This document shows, in pieces, positions 27,811-35,519 of a stretch of 35,519 nt of DNA. Where the stretch lies: assembly GCA_014240285.1 (NCBI GenBank), contig JAAZXI010000011.1:1-35519 (forward strand), written 5' to 3'. The first letter of the stretch is position 1, and every line of letters starts with the position of its first letter. The position numbers and the translations under genes are program-made. The notes beneath the pieces are model-generated. The model searched no databases, was not told the DNA's origin, and was given only the letters and a program-made list of their open reading frames with translations. Source of the DNA: Methanobacteriota archaeon (GTDB lineage: Archaea > Thermoplasmatota > Poseidoniia > Poseidoniales > Thalassarchaeaceae).

Positions 27811-27834
27811 ATGCTAAGGCTCATTCGGAGCAGC

Positions 27835-28782
27835 ATGGCAACCACCGACCTCATTGAGCACTTCCTACAGGCCACTGAGGCCGCTGCGATAGCGGCCTCG
27901 ACTTGGAGGGGGCTGGAGGACGGCAAGGCCGCAGACGGAGCAGCTGTCGAGGCCATGCGCACTGTCTTCGACAGCGTGCCCTTCAACGGGCGCGTGGCGA
28001 TAGGCGAGGGCGAGCGTGACGACGCACCGATGCTTTGGATTGGCGAACCTCTAGGTTCGATGCAAGGTGTCTCCGGGGCACCGGCAATTGACATAGCCGT
28101 CGACCCTCTAGAGTGCACCAATCACGTCGCCTTCGACCTGCCCAATGCGATGGCAGTTCTCGCCGCAGCCCCTCGTGGTAATCTGCTGCACGCTCCTGAC
28201 TGCTACATGGACAAGATAGCCGGTCCAGCCGCCCTCGCAGGCGAGGTCAGCCTCGAGGCCGACACTTCTTACAACGTCGAGGCCGCCTGCGCCGCTCTCG
28301 GAAAAACCTCGTCACAACTCCGCGTGGTGGTGATGGACAGGCCGCGACACGAACAACTGATACGCGAGCTGAAGCAGCACGATGTCAACATCATCCTCAT
28401 TGGCGACGGCGACATTACCGCGGCTCTGAACGCCGCCGACCCCGATTCGGACATCGACATGCTGATGGGGATAGGGGCAGCACCCGAGGGAGTAATCACA
28501 GCAACTGCTCTCAGGGGACTGAATGCTCCCTTTGAGGGGCGACTCGTGTTCAAGAATGAAGGTCATCGAGAGCGTGCCGAGGAAATGATTGAGGACGATG
28601 TGGACAGGATCTGGAGTCGCGACGAGCTGTGCTCGTCGGATGATTCAGTCTTTATCGGCTCCGGGGTCTGTTCAGGGCGAACCCGCGGTGTCGAGGAAAC
28701 TGATGACGGAAGGTACTCAGTTCACTCAGAAGTGATTGACGTGAAATCCGGCGAGCACTACTTCGTATCCTCGGTGCGATGA
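27835..28782 (+). CDS. glpX: Class II fructose-1,6-bisphosphatase GlpX
   Basis: AAIAASTWRGLEDGKAADGAAVEAMR, RVAIGEGERDDAPMLWIGEPLG, AIDIAVDPLECTNHVA; ATG 27835 preferred. Confidence 0.92.
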   Translation: MATTDLIEHFLQATEAAAIAASTWRGLEDGKAADGAAVEAMRTVFDSVPFNGRVAIGEGERDDAPMLWIGEPLGSMQGVSGAPAIDIAVDPLECTNHVAFDLPNAMAVLAAAPRGNLLHAPDCYMDKIAGPAALAGEVSLEADTSYNVEAACAALGKTSSQLRVVVMDRPRHEQLIRELKQHDVNIILIGDGDITAALNAADPDSDIDMLMGIGAAPEGVITATALRGLNAPFEGRLVFKNEGHRERAEEMIEDDVDRIWSRDELCSSDDSVFIGSGVCSGRTRGVEETDDGRYSVHSEVIDVKSGEHYFVSSVR

Positions 28783-28823
28783 GTTCTTCTCCTACCGCCC
28801 GCACGTGAGCATGAGGTAATTGG

Positions 28824-29843
28824 ATGGACACGGAACTCCTCAAGAGGACCGCAAGCGAACTGGTTGCCCCGGGCAAGGGGATACTCGCAGCTGACGAGAG
28901 CAACGGGACGATGTCGAAGCGCTTGGCTACTGCTGGAGTCGAGCCCTCGTCCGAGTCCCGGCGTTCGTACAGAGCAAATCTGCTTGATACAGCAGGATAC
29001 GAATCTGCCGTCGGGGGCGTCATCCTGTTCGATGAGACAATTAGGCAGAACATGGATGACGGCTCCTCAATAGCTGAGGCACTGAGTTCTAGGGGAATCC
29101 ACCCTGGAATCAAGGTCGACACAGGGGCAAAGGACCTCGCCAATCACTCCGGTGAGAAGATCACAGAGGGTCTCGATGGACTCAGGGAGCGTTGTATCGA
29201 GTATTTCGAGATGGGCGCACGTTTCGCCAAGTGGCGAGCTGTCATCCGCATCGCTCAGGGGATGCCTAGTCCGGCCTGCATATCTACCAATGCCCACGCG
29301 CTGGCCCGCTACGCTGGAATCTGCCAAGAGCAGGGACTAGTCCCAATCATCGAGCCCGAGGTCCTGATGGATGGTTCCCACGACGCGCAGCACTGCTACG
29401 ATGTCACAGCCGAGATTCTCGATGCGACCTTCGCCGCCTGTGCTGAGCAGGGCATTTACATTCCTGGAGCACTGCTCAAGCCTAACATGATTATCGCAGG
29501 CAATGACTGCTCTGACCAGATTTCGAGGGAGGAGGTAGCAAGGATGACAGTGGACTGCTTGACGAAACATGTCCCACACGATCTCCCAGGCATCGTCTTC
29601 CTGTCAGGAGGACAGTCTGACGAGGATGCTACTGCCCACCTCAATCTGATGAACCAGATGGATGTCGAGCACCCTTGGCAACTTTCCTACTCCTACGGCC
29701 GGGCACTACAGGCACACGCTCTCACTACTTGGGCCGAAGGAGACTCTGGCGCTGCAGTCGCCAGCCAGCGGATGTTCGCTCATCGGGCCAGCATGAACAG
29801 TCTAGCTCGAAGCGGAGACTGGAGTCCTGACTTAGAGGACTAA
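28824..29843 (+). CDS. Class I fructose-bisphosphate aldolase (bacterial/eukaryotic type)
   Basis: 339 aa; APGKGILAADESNGTMSKRL, GVILFDETIRQ, FAKWRAVIRI, VPIIEPEVLMDGSHD, LLKPNMI, IVFLSGGQSDEDATAHLNLMN. Confidence 0.94.
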   Translation: MDTELLKRTASELVAPGKGILAADESNGTMSKRLATAGVEPSSESRRSYRANLLDTAGYESAVGGVILFDETIRQNMDDGSSIAEALSSRGIHPGIKVDTGAKDLANHSGEKITEGLDGLRERCIEYFEMGARFAKWRAVIRIAQGMPSPACISTNAHALARYAGICQEQGLVPIIEPEVLMDGSHDAQHCYDVTAEILDATFAACAEQGIYIPGALLKPNMIIAGNDCSDQISREEVARMTVDCLTKHVPHDLPGIVFLSGGQSDEDATAHLNLMNQMDVEHPWQLSYSYGRALQAHALTTWAEGDSGAAVASQRMFAHRASMNSLARSGDWSPDLED

Positions 29844-30095
29844 TCAGTTTTCGTCCAAGGCCCCAGGCCTCAGTTGCCAGACACAGATTTCGTAGCGGCC
29901 GGAGAGGGCACCACCCCGCTTCGTTGTTGCGACCTTCATGATGTCCTTGTCCTTGGAAAGGACATTCCCCAGTTGCTGAGGAGTAGTCCCATGACGCATG
30001 GTGGAGTTCACGTGTTCCAGAATCTCTGTCGTGTTGGCCTCTCCTCTAACATCCAAGAATTTCTTTATTTTCTGCCGTAGTCTTGTTGTCCTCAT
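29844..30095 (-). CDS. Small winged-helix/HTH-like protein
   Basis: 83 aa; MRTTRLRQKIKKFLDVRGEANTTEILEHVNSTMRHGTTPQQLGNVLSKDKDIMKVATTKRGGALSGRYEICVWQL. Confidence 0.65.
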   Translation of the reverse strand: MRTTRLRQKIKKFLDVRGEANTTEILEHVNSTMRHGTTPQQLGNVLSKDKDIMKVATTKRGGALSGRYEICVWQLRPGALDEN

Positions 30096-30106: not shown

Positions 30107-30373
30107 CTATTTATTGTCGGGCTTGGCACGCTCGTGGTGCCTAACCCACTCCTCGGTCGCCCATTCCGAGAGTGGGGCGGTACTGCCAGTCATTCCGCTC
30201 TTGCGAACCGTCCCGATACGGACGATGCTTGCGTCTGACTCCATCAGTGATGCTAGATCCAAGCTTCCGGAGTAACCTTCCTGACTACTCAGCCAGGTTG
30301 CAATCTCAGCACTGTTCCTAGGCTGCTCAGAGAGGTATTTGCGAATGATAAGTCGGATTTTTTCCGCTTCCAT
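30107..30373 (-). CDS. Small HTH-like protein, similar layout to its downstream neighbour
   Basis: 88 aa; MEAEKIRLIIRKYLSEQPRNSAEIATWLSSQEGYSGSLDLASLMESDASIVRIGTVRKSGMTG. Confidence 0.6.
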   Translation of the reverse strand: MEAEKIRLIIRKYLSEQPRNSAEIATWLSSQEGYSGSLDLASLMESDASIVRIGTVRKSGMTGSTAPLSEWATEEWVRHHERAKPDNK

Positions 30374-30450: not shown

Positions 30451-30577
30451 CTGTACGAAATCACACCTTTTCGTTACAGATAGTTGCTAGAAATGAGTGC
30501 ATTTTCAAGTTTGAACCAAGTGCGGAAATGAAACTGATATATTCTCCATAGGAAATATGTAATCAACTGTAACGAAA
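30451..30577. promoter_or_regulatory. Three-site inverted-repeat operator-like region (CTGTAACGAAA family)
   Basis: CTGTACGAAA 30451-30460 (1-nt shorter copy), TTTCGTTACAG 30469-30479, CTGTAACGAAA 30567-30577; AT-rich interval between the last two. Confidence 0.65.
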
Positions 30578-30588
30578 CAACATAATTT

Positions 30589-30615
30589 AATACATCAACT
30601 TTAGTAAGATGTATT
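30589..30615. promoter_or_regulatory. 8-bp inverted repeat AATACATC-N11-GATGTATT just upstream of the GTG start at 30628
   Basis: Perfect arms 30589-30596 and 30608-30615. Confidence 0.5.
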
Positions 30616-30627
30616 GAGAGGTGGCGA

Positions 30628-33249
30628 GTGGTGTCAAATGAATCCCCTGAGCCACTGAATCCCGATTATTCGAACAGTGCTTGGAAAATTAGGAGCAAGC
30701 ATCGCAGGAGACTCCTTGATCGGCTAACTGAGGGTGGTGCCACCGTCAGTGTGTTGGCTAGGGATGTCGAACTCAGGGTTCCGCATGCCTCAGCAGAGAT
30801 AAAACGACTGAGAAACGATGGACTGATCTCCAGTGACTTATCTGCTGGGAGCCGTGGAGCTAGGATCCATCTGACCGAATTGGGTTGGGAGTCAGTGAGG
30901 GCTGACGAGTGGGCGAGGGCATCTGAGGCCTCTCCCCTGCCCGAAGACTCCAGCTTGTGCTGCCTGCTTTCACGCGATGGCCCAAACCTCCTGCTTGGAG
31001 TAATGGAGCCTTGCGACTCCCCCCTGCTACTGATTCCTGATCGCCCCCCCGTTGCGATTCCGGGCAATCCCGGGTCCACCGGAAGCGATGGGGTTCCTTG
31101 GAGTTGGGCGGTACTCAGGGAGAGAGATCCCCGGTGGTTCGACCTCTCGTCGATGGAACCCAAACCAAGTCCTCAGCCCCCCTCCGATCCGGAGAACATA
31201 GCGGCTTACTCCGGACAGCGCACTGTCGTCGGGATAATCCGCGCCCGACTACTCGACTCCGAGCGACCGATAGCAATAGCACCGGGTCAGTGGTTTGGGT
31301 CTCCGGGCTTCCGACCCGCTCCCCCGTTACCTGAGAGCGACTATCATAGGGGGCAGTGGGTACTCGGTGCGTGCCACGAGATGTCACCTGAGATCAGACC
31401 AAAGGAGCCGGTGGTGGCTGTGCTGGAAGACAGGCTTCCTCGCTCCATGCTGCTCAGAACCGCGAGAAGCAACTCGTTAATCATCGCGGATCTTGGTGGG
31501 CTGGATGCCGATGGCGATTCGTACCCACTGGCAGCCCTCGATTCTTGGATCGAGAGGGCTCACCCACGTTTGAGCGATACAGAGAGGAGACGCAGACTAG
31601 GGGCCCTAAAGGACAGGGTCAGCAAGGCGAGAAAGGTCAGGACTGAGGATTCCACTTGGCGTCGATTCAGACAGGACTGGGGCGAATCGGTGTTCACCGA
31701 GGAAGGTGATTCAATCAGGATCCTCGACCTGAGAGGTCTGGGTGCCACGGCGGCCGAGGCATTAGTGAGATGGGCAATCAATGACGATGGTAAACGCCCC
31801 CTAACTGTTGAAGTTGGGGCCGATATGCCCGATGATTTGGTCTCATCGATTGCTTCACACTCCAACCTCAGATTGGCACTCCTAGATGGCGAGATCGCCG
31901 CCTTCGCTGGCTTTGACCGGCTGGACGCCGACCCTCTGAGGCCGCTGCCTTGGTTACGTCTGACAACTAGGGGGGGGAGGATACTGCCTATGCGACTGGT
32001 GGACTCCGCACAGGCCCCTTCGTTTTCAGGCTCCGAGGTAACCGTCGGACCTGAGTGGGAGTCCTTAGGCGTAAATATCGAGTTGTTTGAGGAGATTGAC
32101 GAGGGCCACCTATCAGTCATCAATTCAGCAGTAGTCCAGTACCCCGCAGGCAATGAGGAGTGGGCCAATCAGATGGAAGCCAGATACCCTATTGCGGCTT
32201 GGATAGCATCTCCCGCTGAGGCAAGATGGCCACGCTGGCAGAGACTCAGGAATCGACTCAGTCCGGAGTGGCTAGTACTCATGAATCTGGACGACCTCCC
32301 GCTCGAGAGACTCTCAGAGGTCGCCGACGAGGCACCCGACCTAGTCTTGAAAGAATTCTCCAAGAAGATCACCAGCAGACTCAGGCAGGACCCCGACGCG
32401 GCACTGAGGACGAGGCCAGCGGAGGATCCGAAGCAAGCCACCCGCGGAGCCTCTTGGGTGGCGGCTCAACTGCTGTCGAACGCTCCTTGGTTGCCGGAGC
32501 ACATGCACTCTGATTTGCTCCGTTGGGCTCTAGAGGCATGGCTCTCCGAGCCCCCGAGTGATTCAATGCCCGCTCTCCAGGGAGTTGCGTGGCTTTACTC
32601 CCCGGACCGCAGCGACGAAACCAGCTTCAGGCCGATTATAGAGGGAATTCGGAGCAAGGGCAGGGGGTCTCCATCTGGTCATGACCTGCACACTTGGGCC
32701 AGCCTAGCAGACATGATGCTGGACGATGCGGAGACAAGTCTCGATGATTTGGAGAAAATACTGGAACTGCCTCCCGGCTGGTGGGCACCAGTCTCAGTCA
32801 AGATTCTCTCTGAGCTGCTCGAGGATGACGATTCTACAGATTGGCTCATCGCTAATTCTGCCTCTTGGTGCGCGGCGGTGCTGCGCCCGATAGGCGATTA
32901 CTGCCAGGCCCCCGGGCTGCGTTCATACGAGCATCCTGGATGCGACTCCGAGTTGCGCTCTCGCCTCTTACGTAGGCTGAGGGGCAGGCGTGAGCGTCTG
33001 GGCCTGCCCGATAGCGCTGAACCACTACTTGATCTACTCGACGCCCTAGATGCAGTGAATGATGACAGATCCCCATCGCCAGGAAGGACACATCCGCTAT
33101 CGGGGTGGCTTGCCCAGCCGCTTGAGAAATGGCCGGAATTCTCTTCGGCCGAGGCTATGGACGGTGATTCTAACATCGCCGAGAGACTTCTCTTGAGGAG
33201 CTCCGGGTATCATTCGGAAATCATTGCATCGACGTCGATTTCGGACTGA
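30628..33249 (+). CDS. Large protein without recognised family, N-terminal winged-helix (MarR/ArsR-like) domain
   Basis: 873 aa, GTG start; RRRLLDRLTEGGATVSVLARDVELRVPHASAEIKRLRNDGLISSDLSAGSRGARIHLTELG is wHTH-like; the rest has no recognised motif. Confidence 0.8.
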   Translation: MVSNESPEPLNPDYSNSAWKIRSKHRRRLLDRLTEGGATVSVLARDVELRVPHASAEIKRLRNDGLISSDLSAGSRGARIHLTELGWESVRADEWARASEASPLPEDSSLCCLLSRDGPNLLLGVMEPCDSPLLLIPDRPPVAIPGNPGSTGSDGVPWSWAVLRERDPRWFDLSSMEPKPSPQPPSDPENIAAYSGQRTVVGIIRARLLDSERPIAIAPGQWFGSPGFRPAPPLPESDYHRGQWVLGACHEMSPEIRPKEPVVAVLEDRLPRSMLLRTARSNSLIIADLGGLDADGDSYPLAALDSWIERAHPRLSDTERRRRLGALKDRVSKARKVRTEDSTWRRFRQDWGESVFTEEGDSIRILDLRGLGATAAEALVRWAINDDGKRPLTVEVGADMPDDLVSSIASHSNLRLALLDGEIAAFAGFDRLDADPLRPLPWLRLTTRGGRILPMRLVDSAQAPSFSGSEVTVGPEWESLGVNIELFEEIDEGHLSVINSAVVQYPAGNEEWANQMEARYPIAAWIASPAEARWPRWQRLRNRLSPEWLVLMNLDDLPLERLSEVADEAPDLVLKEFSKKITSRLRQDPDAALRTRPAEDPKQATRGASWVAAQLLSNAPWLPEHMHSDLLRWALEAWLSEPPSDSMPALQGVAWLYSPDRSDETSFRPIIEGIRSKGRGSPSGHDLHTWASLADMMLDDAETSLDDLEKILELPPGWWAPVSVKILSELLEDDDSTDWLIANSASWCAAVLRPIGDYCQAPGLRSYEHPGCDSELRSRLLRRLRGRRERLGLPDSAEPLLDLLDALDAVNDDRSPSPGRTHPLSGWLAQPLEKWPEFSSAEAMDGDSNIAERLLLRSSGYHSEIIASTSISD

Positions 33250-33607: not shown

Positions 33608-34624
33608 ATGCATGACGTCGGCCTAATCGGCGGCACCTTCGATCGCTTCCATGCCGGCCACCTATCGCTGATGGCAGCCGGTCTGTCCAAATGCTCCTCC
33701 ATTGAGGCTTGGATCACCTCAGATCGGATGGCCCATTCAAAGGACCCGCGGGTGAATTCATGGGATGCAAGGGTTCGGGAGATGAAGGAGGCGTTGGAGG
33801 AAGATGCTAGCAGAGTGACCTTCCACGTGCTCGATGACAATCACGGACCCGCACCGGCGCATGCTGATGCCACAGCGATCGTCTGCACTGACGAGACTCG
33901 CGACGAGTGTGAGAAAATCAATCGCCTCAGGGAGGGCAGCGACCTTTCACCGCTGCACATCATCAGCGTAGCACACGTAGCCGCATGGGATGGCGAGTCG
34001 ATATCCAGCTCTAGGATTAGAGCAGGTGAGATAGACCGTGACGGACAACCATGGATCCCAGAAACGATCAGGAGGGGCAGGGCAATCCTGACACCCCAGG
34101 TCGAAGCAGAACTCAAGCAGCCCTTCGGACAATTATTCTCGGGTCCCGAGGACGACCCCTGTGTTGCGATGACAGAAGTCCTCGCCCATGTTGAATGGGA
34201 CTCAGGACCAATCATTGCTGTAGGGGATGTGACCGTCCGCACCCTGCAGGACCTCAACCGGCCAGCCGACATCGCCCTCATTGACGGCCTCACTAGGAGG
34301 GAGCCCTGGGAGGGCGCTGACGCAATCAACCCATCTCTGTATGACAGGGCCCTGCGATGCTCCAGTCCTGCAGGCTCTCTGACGCCTTCGCTGTTGGAGG
34401 CCTGCGAGCAGGCCATGGATTCCTGGAAGGAAGATCAGGTCACCCACCTGATTCAGGTCGAAGGCGAGGAGGACCTCGCTCCTCTCATCCTGCACCCCCT
34501 GGCTCCCCTGGGAGCCGTTGTGCTTTATGGCCAACCAGGGAAAGGAGTTGTAGTCAGACGGTGCGGAGAGGACGCCAAGCAGCGCTGCCGCAGACTGCTG
34601 AGCGACTTTGTTCCCGCCGAATAA
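33608..34624 (+). CDS. Fusion of archaeal phosphopantetheine adenylyltransferase (CoaD-like) and GTP-dependent dephospho-CoA kinase (DUF359)
   Basis: N-term GLIGGTFDRFHAGHLSLMAAGL and SSSRIRAGEID; C-term GPIIAVGDVTVRTL, ADIALIDGLTRR, LIQVEGEEDLAPLILHPLAPLGAVVLYGQPGKGVVV. Confidence 0.87.
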   Translation: MHDVGLIGGTFDRFHAGHLSLMAAGLSKCSSIEAWITSDRMAHSKDPRVNSWDARVREMKEALEEDASRVTFHVLDDNHGPAPAHADATAIVCTDETRDECEKINRLREGSDLSPLHIISVAHVAAWDGESISSSRIRAGEIDRDGQPWIPETIRRGRAILTPQVEAELKQPFGQLFSGPEDDPCVAMTEVLAHVEWDSGPIIAVGDVTVRTLQDLNRPADIALIDGLTRREPWEGADAINPSLYDRALRCSSPAGSLTPSLLEACEQAMDSWKEDQVTHLIQVEGEEDLAPLILHPLAPLGAVVLYGQPGKGVVVRRCGEDAKQRCRRLLSDFVPAE

Positions 34625-35158
34625 TCAGGACTCGGCATCAGCCATCGTGTGGATAGCGAAGCCGAAACTCACCATCACAATCATCACTGCGTAAACTCCG
34701 GGGTCAACCCAGGTTGTGTTCATCAAACTCCAGTACAGGTAGAATCCAACACCGAAGGCGATGAACCAACTTGCGATGGTGCGATTGAAACCTTCGTCAG
34801 GAGAGAACAGACTGGATGCAATCACTCCTTTGGGAATGCTACTGACCCAAGCTGAGAAGCCACCCTCGACGGCCTTGCCCATTCCCATGGCACCGAGGCC
34901 TAGGAGGACTACGCCAATCAGTCCGAAGACGATGTCGTCTGCGACCACCTTGAGCCCTTCATGGGCGATGTTCGAAGAAGCACTGTCGCCGGTGATGAAT
35001 CCGATCCACAGTACTTTGATTCCGGATGAGTAGGCTCCAGAGAAGAGGTTCACTACAGTCAGCAATAGCACCCAGATACCGAGCAAGACGGCGGCGCTCG
35101 ACGCAGTGCTACTAGGTCTGGTCAGGGCACTGCCCCACTCGGATTCCTGCATGGACAT
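34625..35158 (-). CDS. Hypothetical multi-pass (about 4 TM) membrane protein
   Basis: Hydrophobic segments AAVLLGIWVLLLTVVNLF, DIVFGLIGVVLLGLGAMGMG, TIASWFIAFGVGFYLYWSL, VYAVMIVMVSFGFAI; probable start 35158 or 35152. Confidence 0.7.
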   Translation of the reverse strand: MSMQESEWGSALTRPSSTASSAAVLLGIWVLLLTVVNLFSGAYSSGIKVLWIGFITGDSASSNIAHEGLKVVADDIVFGLIGVVLLGLGAMGMGKAVEGGFSAWVSSIPKGVIASSLFSPDEGFNRTIASWFIAFGVGFYLYWSLMNTTWVDPGVYAVMIVMVSFGFAIHTMADAES

Positions 35159-35213
35159 TGAGCCGGCGACCTTGCACTTCGGTTTAACGATTGTCTGAGG
35201 GCAGAACAGCCTC

Positions 35214-35519
35214 TCAGAGTTGGCTTTGCAGGTTGTATCTGCCGAGTGCGGCCTCGGCAATCAGAGGCTCACTTTCACTCATCGTGGTGATGGCGTCCAC
35301 CGCCTTGGGTATTGCCGAGTTGACCTGCTTGCTCCTGCCGCCACGGCCTTTGCTGACATTCCTAGCCATAATCAGTCCAAGCGTATCAAGCTCGTTGAGC
35401 AACGACGATATCCTCCTAGGGGTGAGTGGCTCTATGCTAATCTTCATGCACGCTTCGGTATAGGTTCGGTAAGTCTCCCCAGTGGAGATATTCCTCAGGC
35501 CATTATCTTCGTTCATCCT
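35214..35519 (-). CDS. cdc6: Orc1/Cdc6 replication initiator, C-terminal winged-helix fragment (5' part outside window)
   Basis: TGETYRTYTEACMKISIEPLTPRRISSLLNELDTLGLIMARNVSKGRGGRSKQVNSAIP matches the Cdc6 C-terminal wHTH pattern (Y..Y...C...G..PLT.RR.S.L..ELD.LG.I.A...S.GR.GR). Confidence 0.82.
   Translation of the reverse strand, partial: RMNEDNGLRNISTGETYRTYTEACMKISIEPLTPRRISSLLNELDTLGLIMARNVSKGRGGRSKQVNSAIPKAVDAITTMSESEPLIAEAALGRYNLQSQL

Follow-up and report, generated by a model that had tools for sequence, protein, structure and literature searches.

A candidate replication origin of Poseidoniales and its order-specific winged-helix protein with a HerA-like core

Our analysis points to a replication origin (oriC) of the archaeal order Poseidoniales and to an unusual protein encoded within it. 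This protein is specific to the order, is predicted to bind DNA and to combine a winged helix with a HerA-like core devoid of a Walker A motif, and its own gene carries an origin recognition box (ORB) inside the coding sequence. We give this reading as a whole a probability of about 0.6. The window, that is the whole stretch of 35,519 nucleotides that was analysed, lies within contig C8 of a 1.33-Mb draft genome of the family Thalassarchaeaceae (f1); a second group of genomes, f2, presumably corresponds to the order's other family. A literature search found no paper on an origin of Marine Group II or Poseidoniales and no description of the protein discussed here, which we refer to as the focus protein (Table 1).

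Table 1. Coordinates of the focus gene, its predicted domains and the surrounding origin-like features in the window
Feature	Position	Strand	Basis or remark
DUF3860 gene a (PF12976)	29844..30095	-	Divergent neighbour, kept throughout the order
DUF3860 gene b (PF12976), second copy	30107..30373	-	Divergent neighbour
Diverged tandem copy GCAACTATCTGTAACGAAA	30469..30487	-	Faces the DUF3860 genes
Candidate unwinding region	30488..30607		71% AT, the highest of any 120 bp in the window (mean 43%)
Mini-ORB-like CTCCATAGGAAAT (TTCCAgTGGAAAT in most relatives)	30544..30556	+	Upstream of the focus gene
Tandem element TGTAATCAACTGTAAC, 10-bp period	30558..30573	+	Focus promoter; the only exact copy of the source genome
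Putative TATA-like promoter element ATAATTTAATAC	30582..30593	+	Sequence; conserved in the genus
Focus gene	30628..33249	+	Winged helix, HerA-like pseudo-ATPase core and helical C-terminal domain; 872-873 aa
ArsR/MarR-like winged helix	30688..30906	+	About residues 21-93; profile matches and Foldseek to MarR/SmtB structures
HAS-barrel-like beta-rich domain	30940..31425	+	About residues 105-266; DSSP of models, Foldseek to HerA, followed by F1-ATPase subunits
Intragenic origin recognition box TCCACCGGAAGCGATGGGG	31075..31093	+	Codons 150-156; full ORB with G-string
RecA-like core without Walker A	31411..31998	+	About residues 262-457; E395 kept at the expected Walker B
Helical C-terminal domain	32101..33195	+	About residues 492-856 (about 370 residues); many conserved Trp
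orc1/cdc6, C-terminal part, cut by contig end	35214..35516	-	Cdc6_C, E 4.2e-17; full gene in relatives

A conserved gene confined to one order

The 873-codon reading frame is open at 30628-33249(+), and we judge it to be a genuine gene because other genomes contain full-length or nearly full-length orthologues at 21-88% identity, those at 72-88% coming from relatives named Candidatus Thalassarchaeum and Marine Group II euryarchaeote, which places the source organism in Poseidoniales. The GTG start proposed in the initial annotation is present at 30628; the true start is probably the next GTG, at 30631, which gives 872 aa and is preferred because the corresponding codon of a relative (L008) is ATG. 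Taxonomic distribution, a check named in that annotation, confines the protein to Poseidoniales. A single-sequence search matches 123 of the 128 sampled genomes of the order, the other five being drafts, and none of 7 class-mates nor any other genome among the 390 of the phylum sample. Profile searches give the same picture, with 38/39 order members and 0/21 class-mates matched, and the HerA-like middle domain alone as query retrieves 62 genomes, all from Poseidoniales. Conservation spans the full length of the protein, with many invariant tryptophans, and the gene is normally single copy. From these searches we regard it as an order-specific core gene of Poseidoniales (Marine Group II archaea). 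A viral source of the protein was also considered and set aside: among viral models, Foldseek matched the winged helix only.

Gene order around the focus gene is equally stable. The arrangement DUF3860 (divergent), focus gene, PPAT-DUF359 fusion, 211-aa protein and orc1/cdc6 recurs in 71 further loci and in 8 loci of f2, thus spanning both families with few exceptions or contig ends, and orc1/cdc6 lies 3-5 kb downstream of the focus gene. The two small opposite-strand frames that had been described as HTH-like are indeed a pair, being paralogues of PF12976 (DUF3860; E 1.6e-38 and 1.3e-22), one of which matches the solved structure 2OD5 (E 4.7e-29). DUF3860 is near-universal in Poseidoniales and forms two lineages, one at the candidate origin and one elsewhere; a third copy lies at G000:C72:29457-29672, and outside the order the family was found in one other Thermoplasmatota genome of the sample (G097). 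Among the remaining neighbours, 33608-34624(+) encodes a cytidylyltransferase-like domain (probable phosphopantetheine adenylyltransferase) fused to DUF359 and conserved beside the focus gene. The 211-aa protein at 34625-35260(-) has no Pfam match, is apparently membrane-bound and is conserved between the PPAT fusion and orc1/cdc6. At 27811-29843(+), a GlpX-type fructose-1,6-bisphosphatase adjoins a class I fructose-bisphosphate aldolase, a pair conserved in f1 beside the candidate origin.

Origin-like elements within and upstream of the gene

Of 106 orthologous genes, 92 have the ORB motif TCCAnnGGAAnngAaGGGG within their coding sequence, at the same site in all 92 and nowhere else in the gene; in the complete genome G037, a member of f2, the counterpart reads TCCAATGGAAACAGAGGGG. 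Synonymous recoding predicts 0.54 genes with the motif, and as the 106 genes are related by descent the comparison of 92/106 with 0.54 gives no independent-sample probability. Codons 150-156 form by far the strongest peak of synonymous conservation in the gene (synonymous-codon excess of 0.36 over the 106 genes; the gene averages 0.045, with an SD of 0.035 among its scan windows), and in the structural model they encode a low-confidence, disordered loop. Across 79 loci, mostly of 10-18 kb, there are 72 copies of the motif, 71 of them at the intragenic site, and this site is also its only occurrence in the window and in the 0.8 Mb sampled from G037. The consensus derived from focus genes, TCCAnnGGAAnngAaGGGGt, has exactly the length of the ORB of Methanomassiliicoccales, a lineage of the same phylum (GTTCCAGTGGAAATGG-AGGGGT, the archaeal consensus being CTTCCAGTGGAAACGAAAGGGGT; PMC4153887), and the palindrome TTCCAGTGGAAA corresponds to the archaeal ORB core. 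When the 79 loci are scanned with this core, matches form two clusters, one between -200 and -100 and the other between +300 and +400 relative to the focus start, the downstream cluster being the full ORB with its G-string. Thermococcales, too, have an ORB inside a gene, that of PolD DP1 (PMC2643942). The intragenic box is absent in genus g3 (L027, L030, L058) and genus g8 (L052, L053), both of which retain the TGTAAC tandem element; since g8 keeps the tandem without the palindrome, the two elements are separable.

The upstream region, described as elaborate in the initial annotation, is real and conserved across Poseidoniales. Of 60 genomes from both families, nearly all have TTCCAnTGGAAATnTGTAACTAAATGTAACtAA 5' of the focus gene, even though the focus proteins may share less than 30% identity. 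The exact form TGTAAY-N4-TGTAAY has one copy per genome in three genomes of the genus, always in the focus promoter, and is absent from the fourth genome searched (G037), where the element is degenerate. With a 20-base version and 3 mismatches allowed, the focus promoter is the sole match in 4/5 genomes, including G037; the tandem copy of the source genome exceeds 3 mismatches to this version. A wider regulon of TGTAAC elements was rejected, no further sites appearing in the genomes searched. The mini-ORB core was likewise rejected as an origin marker when taken alone: it is not diagnostic by itself because it gives 0-13 exact matches per genome, weakly above control. The full ORB with G-string, unlike the core, is diagnostic in these sequences. 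We consider the notable upstream DNA to be, probably, part of a replication origin that extends into the focus gene.

The components that PMC4010727 reviews for archaeal oriC are present at the locus: an ORB with G-string, an AT-rich segment and linkage to orc1/cdc6. Sampling G037 in 40 blocks of 20 kb gave a noisy GC skew and an AT skew that does not change sign at the locus. From its sequence features, the locus is very likely the active replication origin of Poseidoniales. The arrangement resembles the oriC that adjoins orc1/cdc6 in Methanomassiliicoccales (PMC4153887) in ORB spacing, G-string, nearby orc1/cdc6 and AT-rich segment; it differs in that the full ORB of Poseidoniales sits inside the focus coding sequence, 3-5 kb from orc1, and in that a lineage-specific TGTAAC tandem element is added. 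A lineage-specific element besides the ORB is also found at Sulfolobus origins, where ucm is bound by UBP, a binder other than Orc1/Cdc6 (PMC12141716). As a nucleoid protein, UBP has hundreds of sites, whereas the exact TGTAAC element is found at one promoter region per genome.

A winged helix joined to a HerA-like core without Walker A

The N-terminal MarR/ArsR-type winged helix recognised in the initial annotation is borne out by profiles across the family: NF033788 (ArsR/SmtB) matches 34/34 members, with a best E of 7.9e-9, and Pfam HTH_5 matches 24/34, with a best E of 7.7e-7, the single sequence of the window falling below the Pfam cut-off for HTH_5. The focus protein likely binds DNA through this domain. 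Beyond it, no credible match emerges in Pfam, NCBIfam, PADLOC or a sequence search of the PDB, and the view that the rest of the protein matches no domain holds at the level of sequence. It does not hold at the level of fold, where residues 102-466 are HerA-like. A full-length AlphaFold2 model (pLDDT 85.7, pTM 0.82) has HerA 9x1l_A as its best PDB match in Foldseek (E 3.5e-3), followed by MarR/SmtB winged helices. Residues 102-466 were modelled separately to test the HerA lead (pLDDT 87.1, pTM 0.83), and their best match is HerA 9x1m_A (E 1.8e-5, probability 1.00), with a borderline TM-score of 0.48 by query; HerA 8wiv (E 1.3e-4) and then F1-ATPase subunits come next. The entries 9x1l/9x1m and 8wiv were confirmed as HerA proteins, and F1-ATPase subunits are the other HAS-barrel family, so this order of matches is as expected of a HAS barrel plus a RecA core. 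By eye, the order of strands and helices tracks HerA, with strands at IIAD (284), ILDLRGLG (363) and TVEV (392) and a final hairpin (442-457). The helical C-terminal domain has no separate structural match in the whole-protein Foldseek search (residues 490-860). The only fold match beyond the winged helix is thus to a DNA-translocating ATPase family, and structure prediction of the C-terminal region yielded no strong match to an enzyme family without a DNA-binding role.

The Walker A pattern (A/G-x4-GK[ST]) is absent from the domain in 62/62 members; the sole match to it, in L025, lies at the extreme C-terminus, outside the HerA-like domain. The acidic position where Walker B is expected, E395, is E or D in 55/62 members. 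Profile-profile comparison (hhalign) with 18 HerA proteins of the phylum gives a probability of 0.1% or less for the whole protein and for the domain alone, and because it found nothing the relation to HerA is one of predicted structure only, with borderline support for homology from the fold at a TM-score of 0.48. Without a P-loop, the core would not be expected to bind ATP in the usual way. As the P-loop is gone and the HerA of S. islandicus requires its Walker A lysine (PMC4351679), the domain is unlikely to act as a motor. What the protein shares with HerA, the archaeal HAS-barrel DNA translocase (9x1l/9x1m, 4D2I), is the predicted fold, a HAS barrel plus RecA-like core; it cannot be classed as a HerA, since Walker A, profile similarity and a NurA partner are all missing. 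In contrast to HerA, it adds a winged helix and a 370-residue helical domain, and its gene is sited at the candidate oriC instead of with mre11-rad50. Searches for NurA (PF09376) hit 0/40 Poseidoniales genomes, and the canonical HerA HAS-barrel domain was found in none of the listed genomes of the order. Genomes of f2 instead carry a DUF87 ATPase of about 835 aa whose P-loop is intact and which apparently has membrane segments.

Proposed role and alternatives

What might such a protein do at an origin? We propose that its winged helix, or the divergent partner DUF3860, binds the TGTAAC tandems in the shared divergent promoter, and that this binding would control expression of the focus gene itself. 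The same binding would occupy the AT-rich segment that separates the ORB sites and so control initiation by Orc1/Cdc6, and the HerA-like part would be not a motor but a platform for assembly, possibly ring-shaped as HerA is. That one or the other of these two proteins binds the tandem elements is probable on sequence grounds. What links the focus protein with the TGTAAC elements is their occurrence at one place per genome, and DUF3860 is an equal candidate as their binder. The odds that the focus protein takes part in replication control are about even, and its exact function would be that of an autoregulator or an initiator accessory. A more specific version, in which it is a lineage-specific second initiation or licensing factor that forms a ring, is independent of ATP, binds its own tandems in oriC, works with Orc1/Cdc6 and couples its own expression to origin duplication, is put forward tentatively. 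The nearest functional analogue appears to be WhiP, with which we claim analogy and not membership; we know of no HerA-like domain in that protein. WhiP is the winged-helix initiator at Sulfolobus oriC3 (PMC4010727), likewise a winged-helix protein beside an origin and unique to one archaeal lineage, yet oriC3 has no ORB whereas the Poseidoniales locus has ORBs and a neighbouring orc1/cdc6.

The alternative that survives best regards the focus protein as an ordinary transcription factor, autoregulated and with a large sensor portion, that neighbours oriC by chance; the intragenic ORB would be a cis element of the origin, and the protein would have no role in replication. Its winged helix is of the ArsR/MarR type, the promoter element lacks another exact copy in the genomes searched, as it would for a locus-specific regulator, and the ORB within PolD DP1 of Thermococcales (PMC2643942) shows that an unrelated gene can host one. 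Linkage to orc1 and ORB throughout the order, in a protein found nowhere else, argues against this view, as do its DNA-translocase fold and the lack of a recognised ligand-binding domain. The initial annotation had thought the protein oversized for a one-component regulator. The size is indeed unusual, and at 873 aa the protein has the winged helix of such regulators without either the small build of a winged helix alone or a known sensor domain (Pfam, NCBIfam, PADLOC); with a HAS barrel and a RecA-like HerA core lacking Walker A, it is not simply a large regulator of that kind. We consider this alternative unlikely.

Less probable still is a division of labour in which DUF3860 binds TGTAAC and the focus protein acts on DNA nonspecifically or elsewhere, for example as a partition or repair platform replacing a lost HerA-NurA. 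DUF3860 is the conserved divergent partner, and neither canonical HAS-barrel HerA nor NurA was found in Poseidoniales; on the other hand, there is no nuclease partner gene in the neighbourhood, a core without Walker A cannot replace the HerA motor, and no matching element was found at the second DUF3860 lineage elsewhere in the genomes. Finally, that the intragenic motif reflects some other regulatory or protein-coding constraint is very improbable: the encoded S150 and G155 are also conserved, but the constraint falls on synonymous positions (TCC, GGA, GGG) of a disordered loop, length and G-string match the ORB of the same phylum exactly (PMC4153887), the ORB core also occurs upstream and orc1 is nearby.

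Marine Group II ranks among the most abundant archaeal groups in the surface ocean; to our knowledge, none of its members is in pure culture. A sequence-defined oriC with a conserved ORB would provide a testable origin for the whole order, and its position would anchor growth rates estimated from the read depth of metagenomes. A protein that fuses a winged helix with a P-loop-less core of HerA type, and that is kept at the candidate origin throughout the order, may represent an undescribed class of origin-linked protein, in which a DNA-translocase fold has apparently been re-used without its motor.
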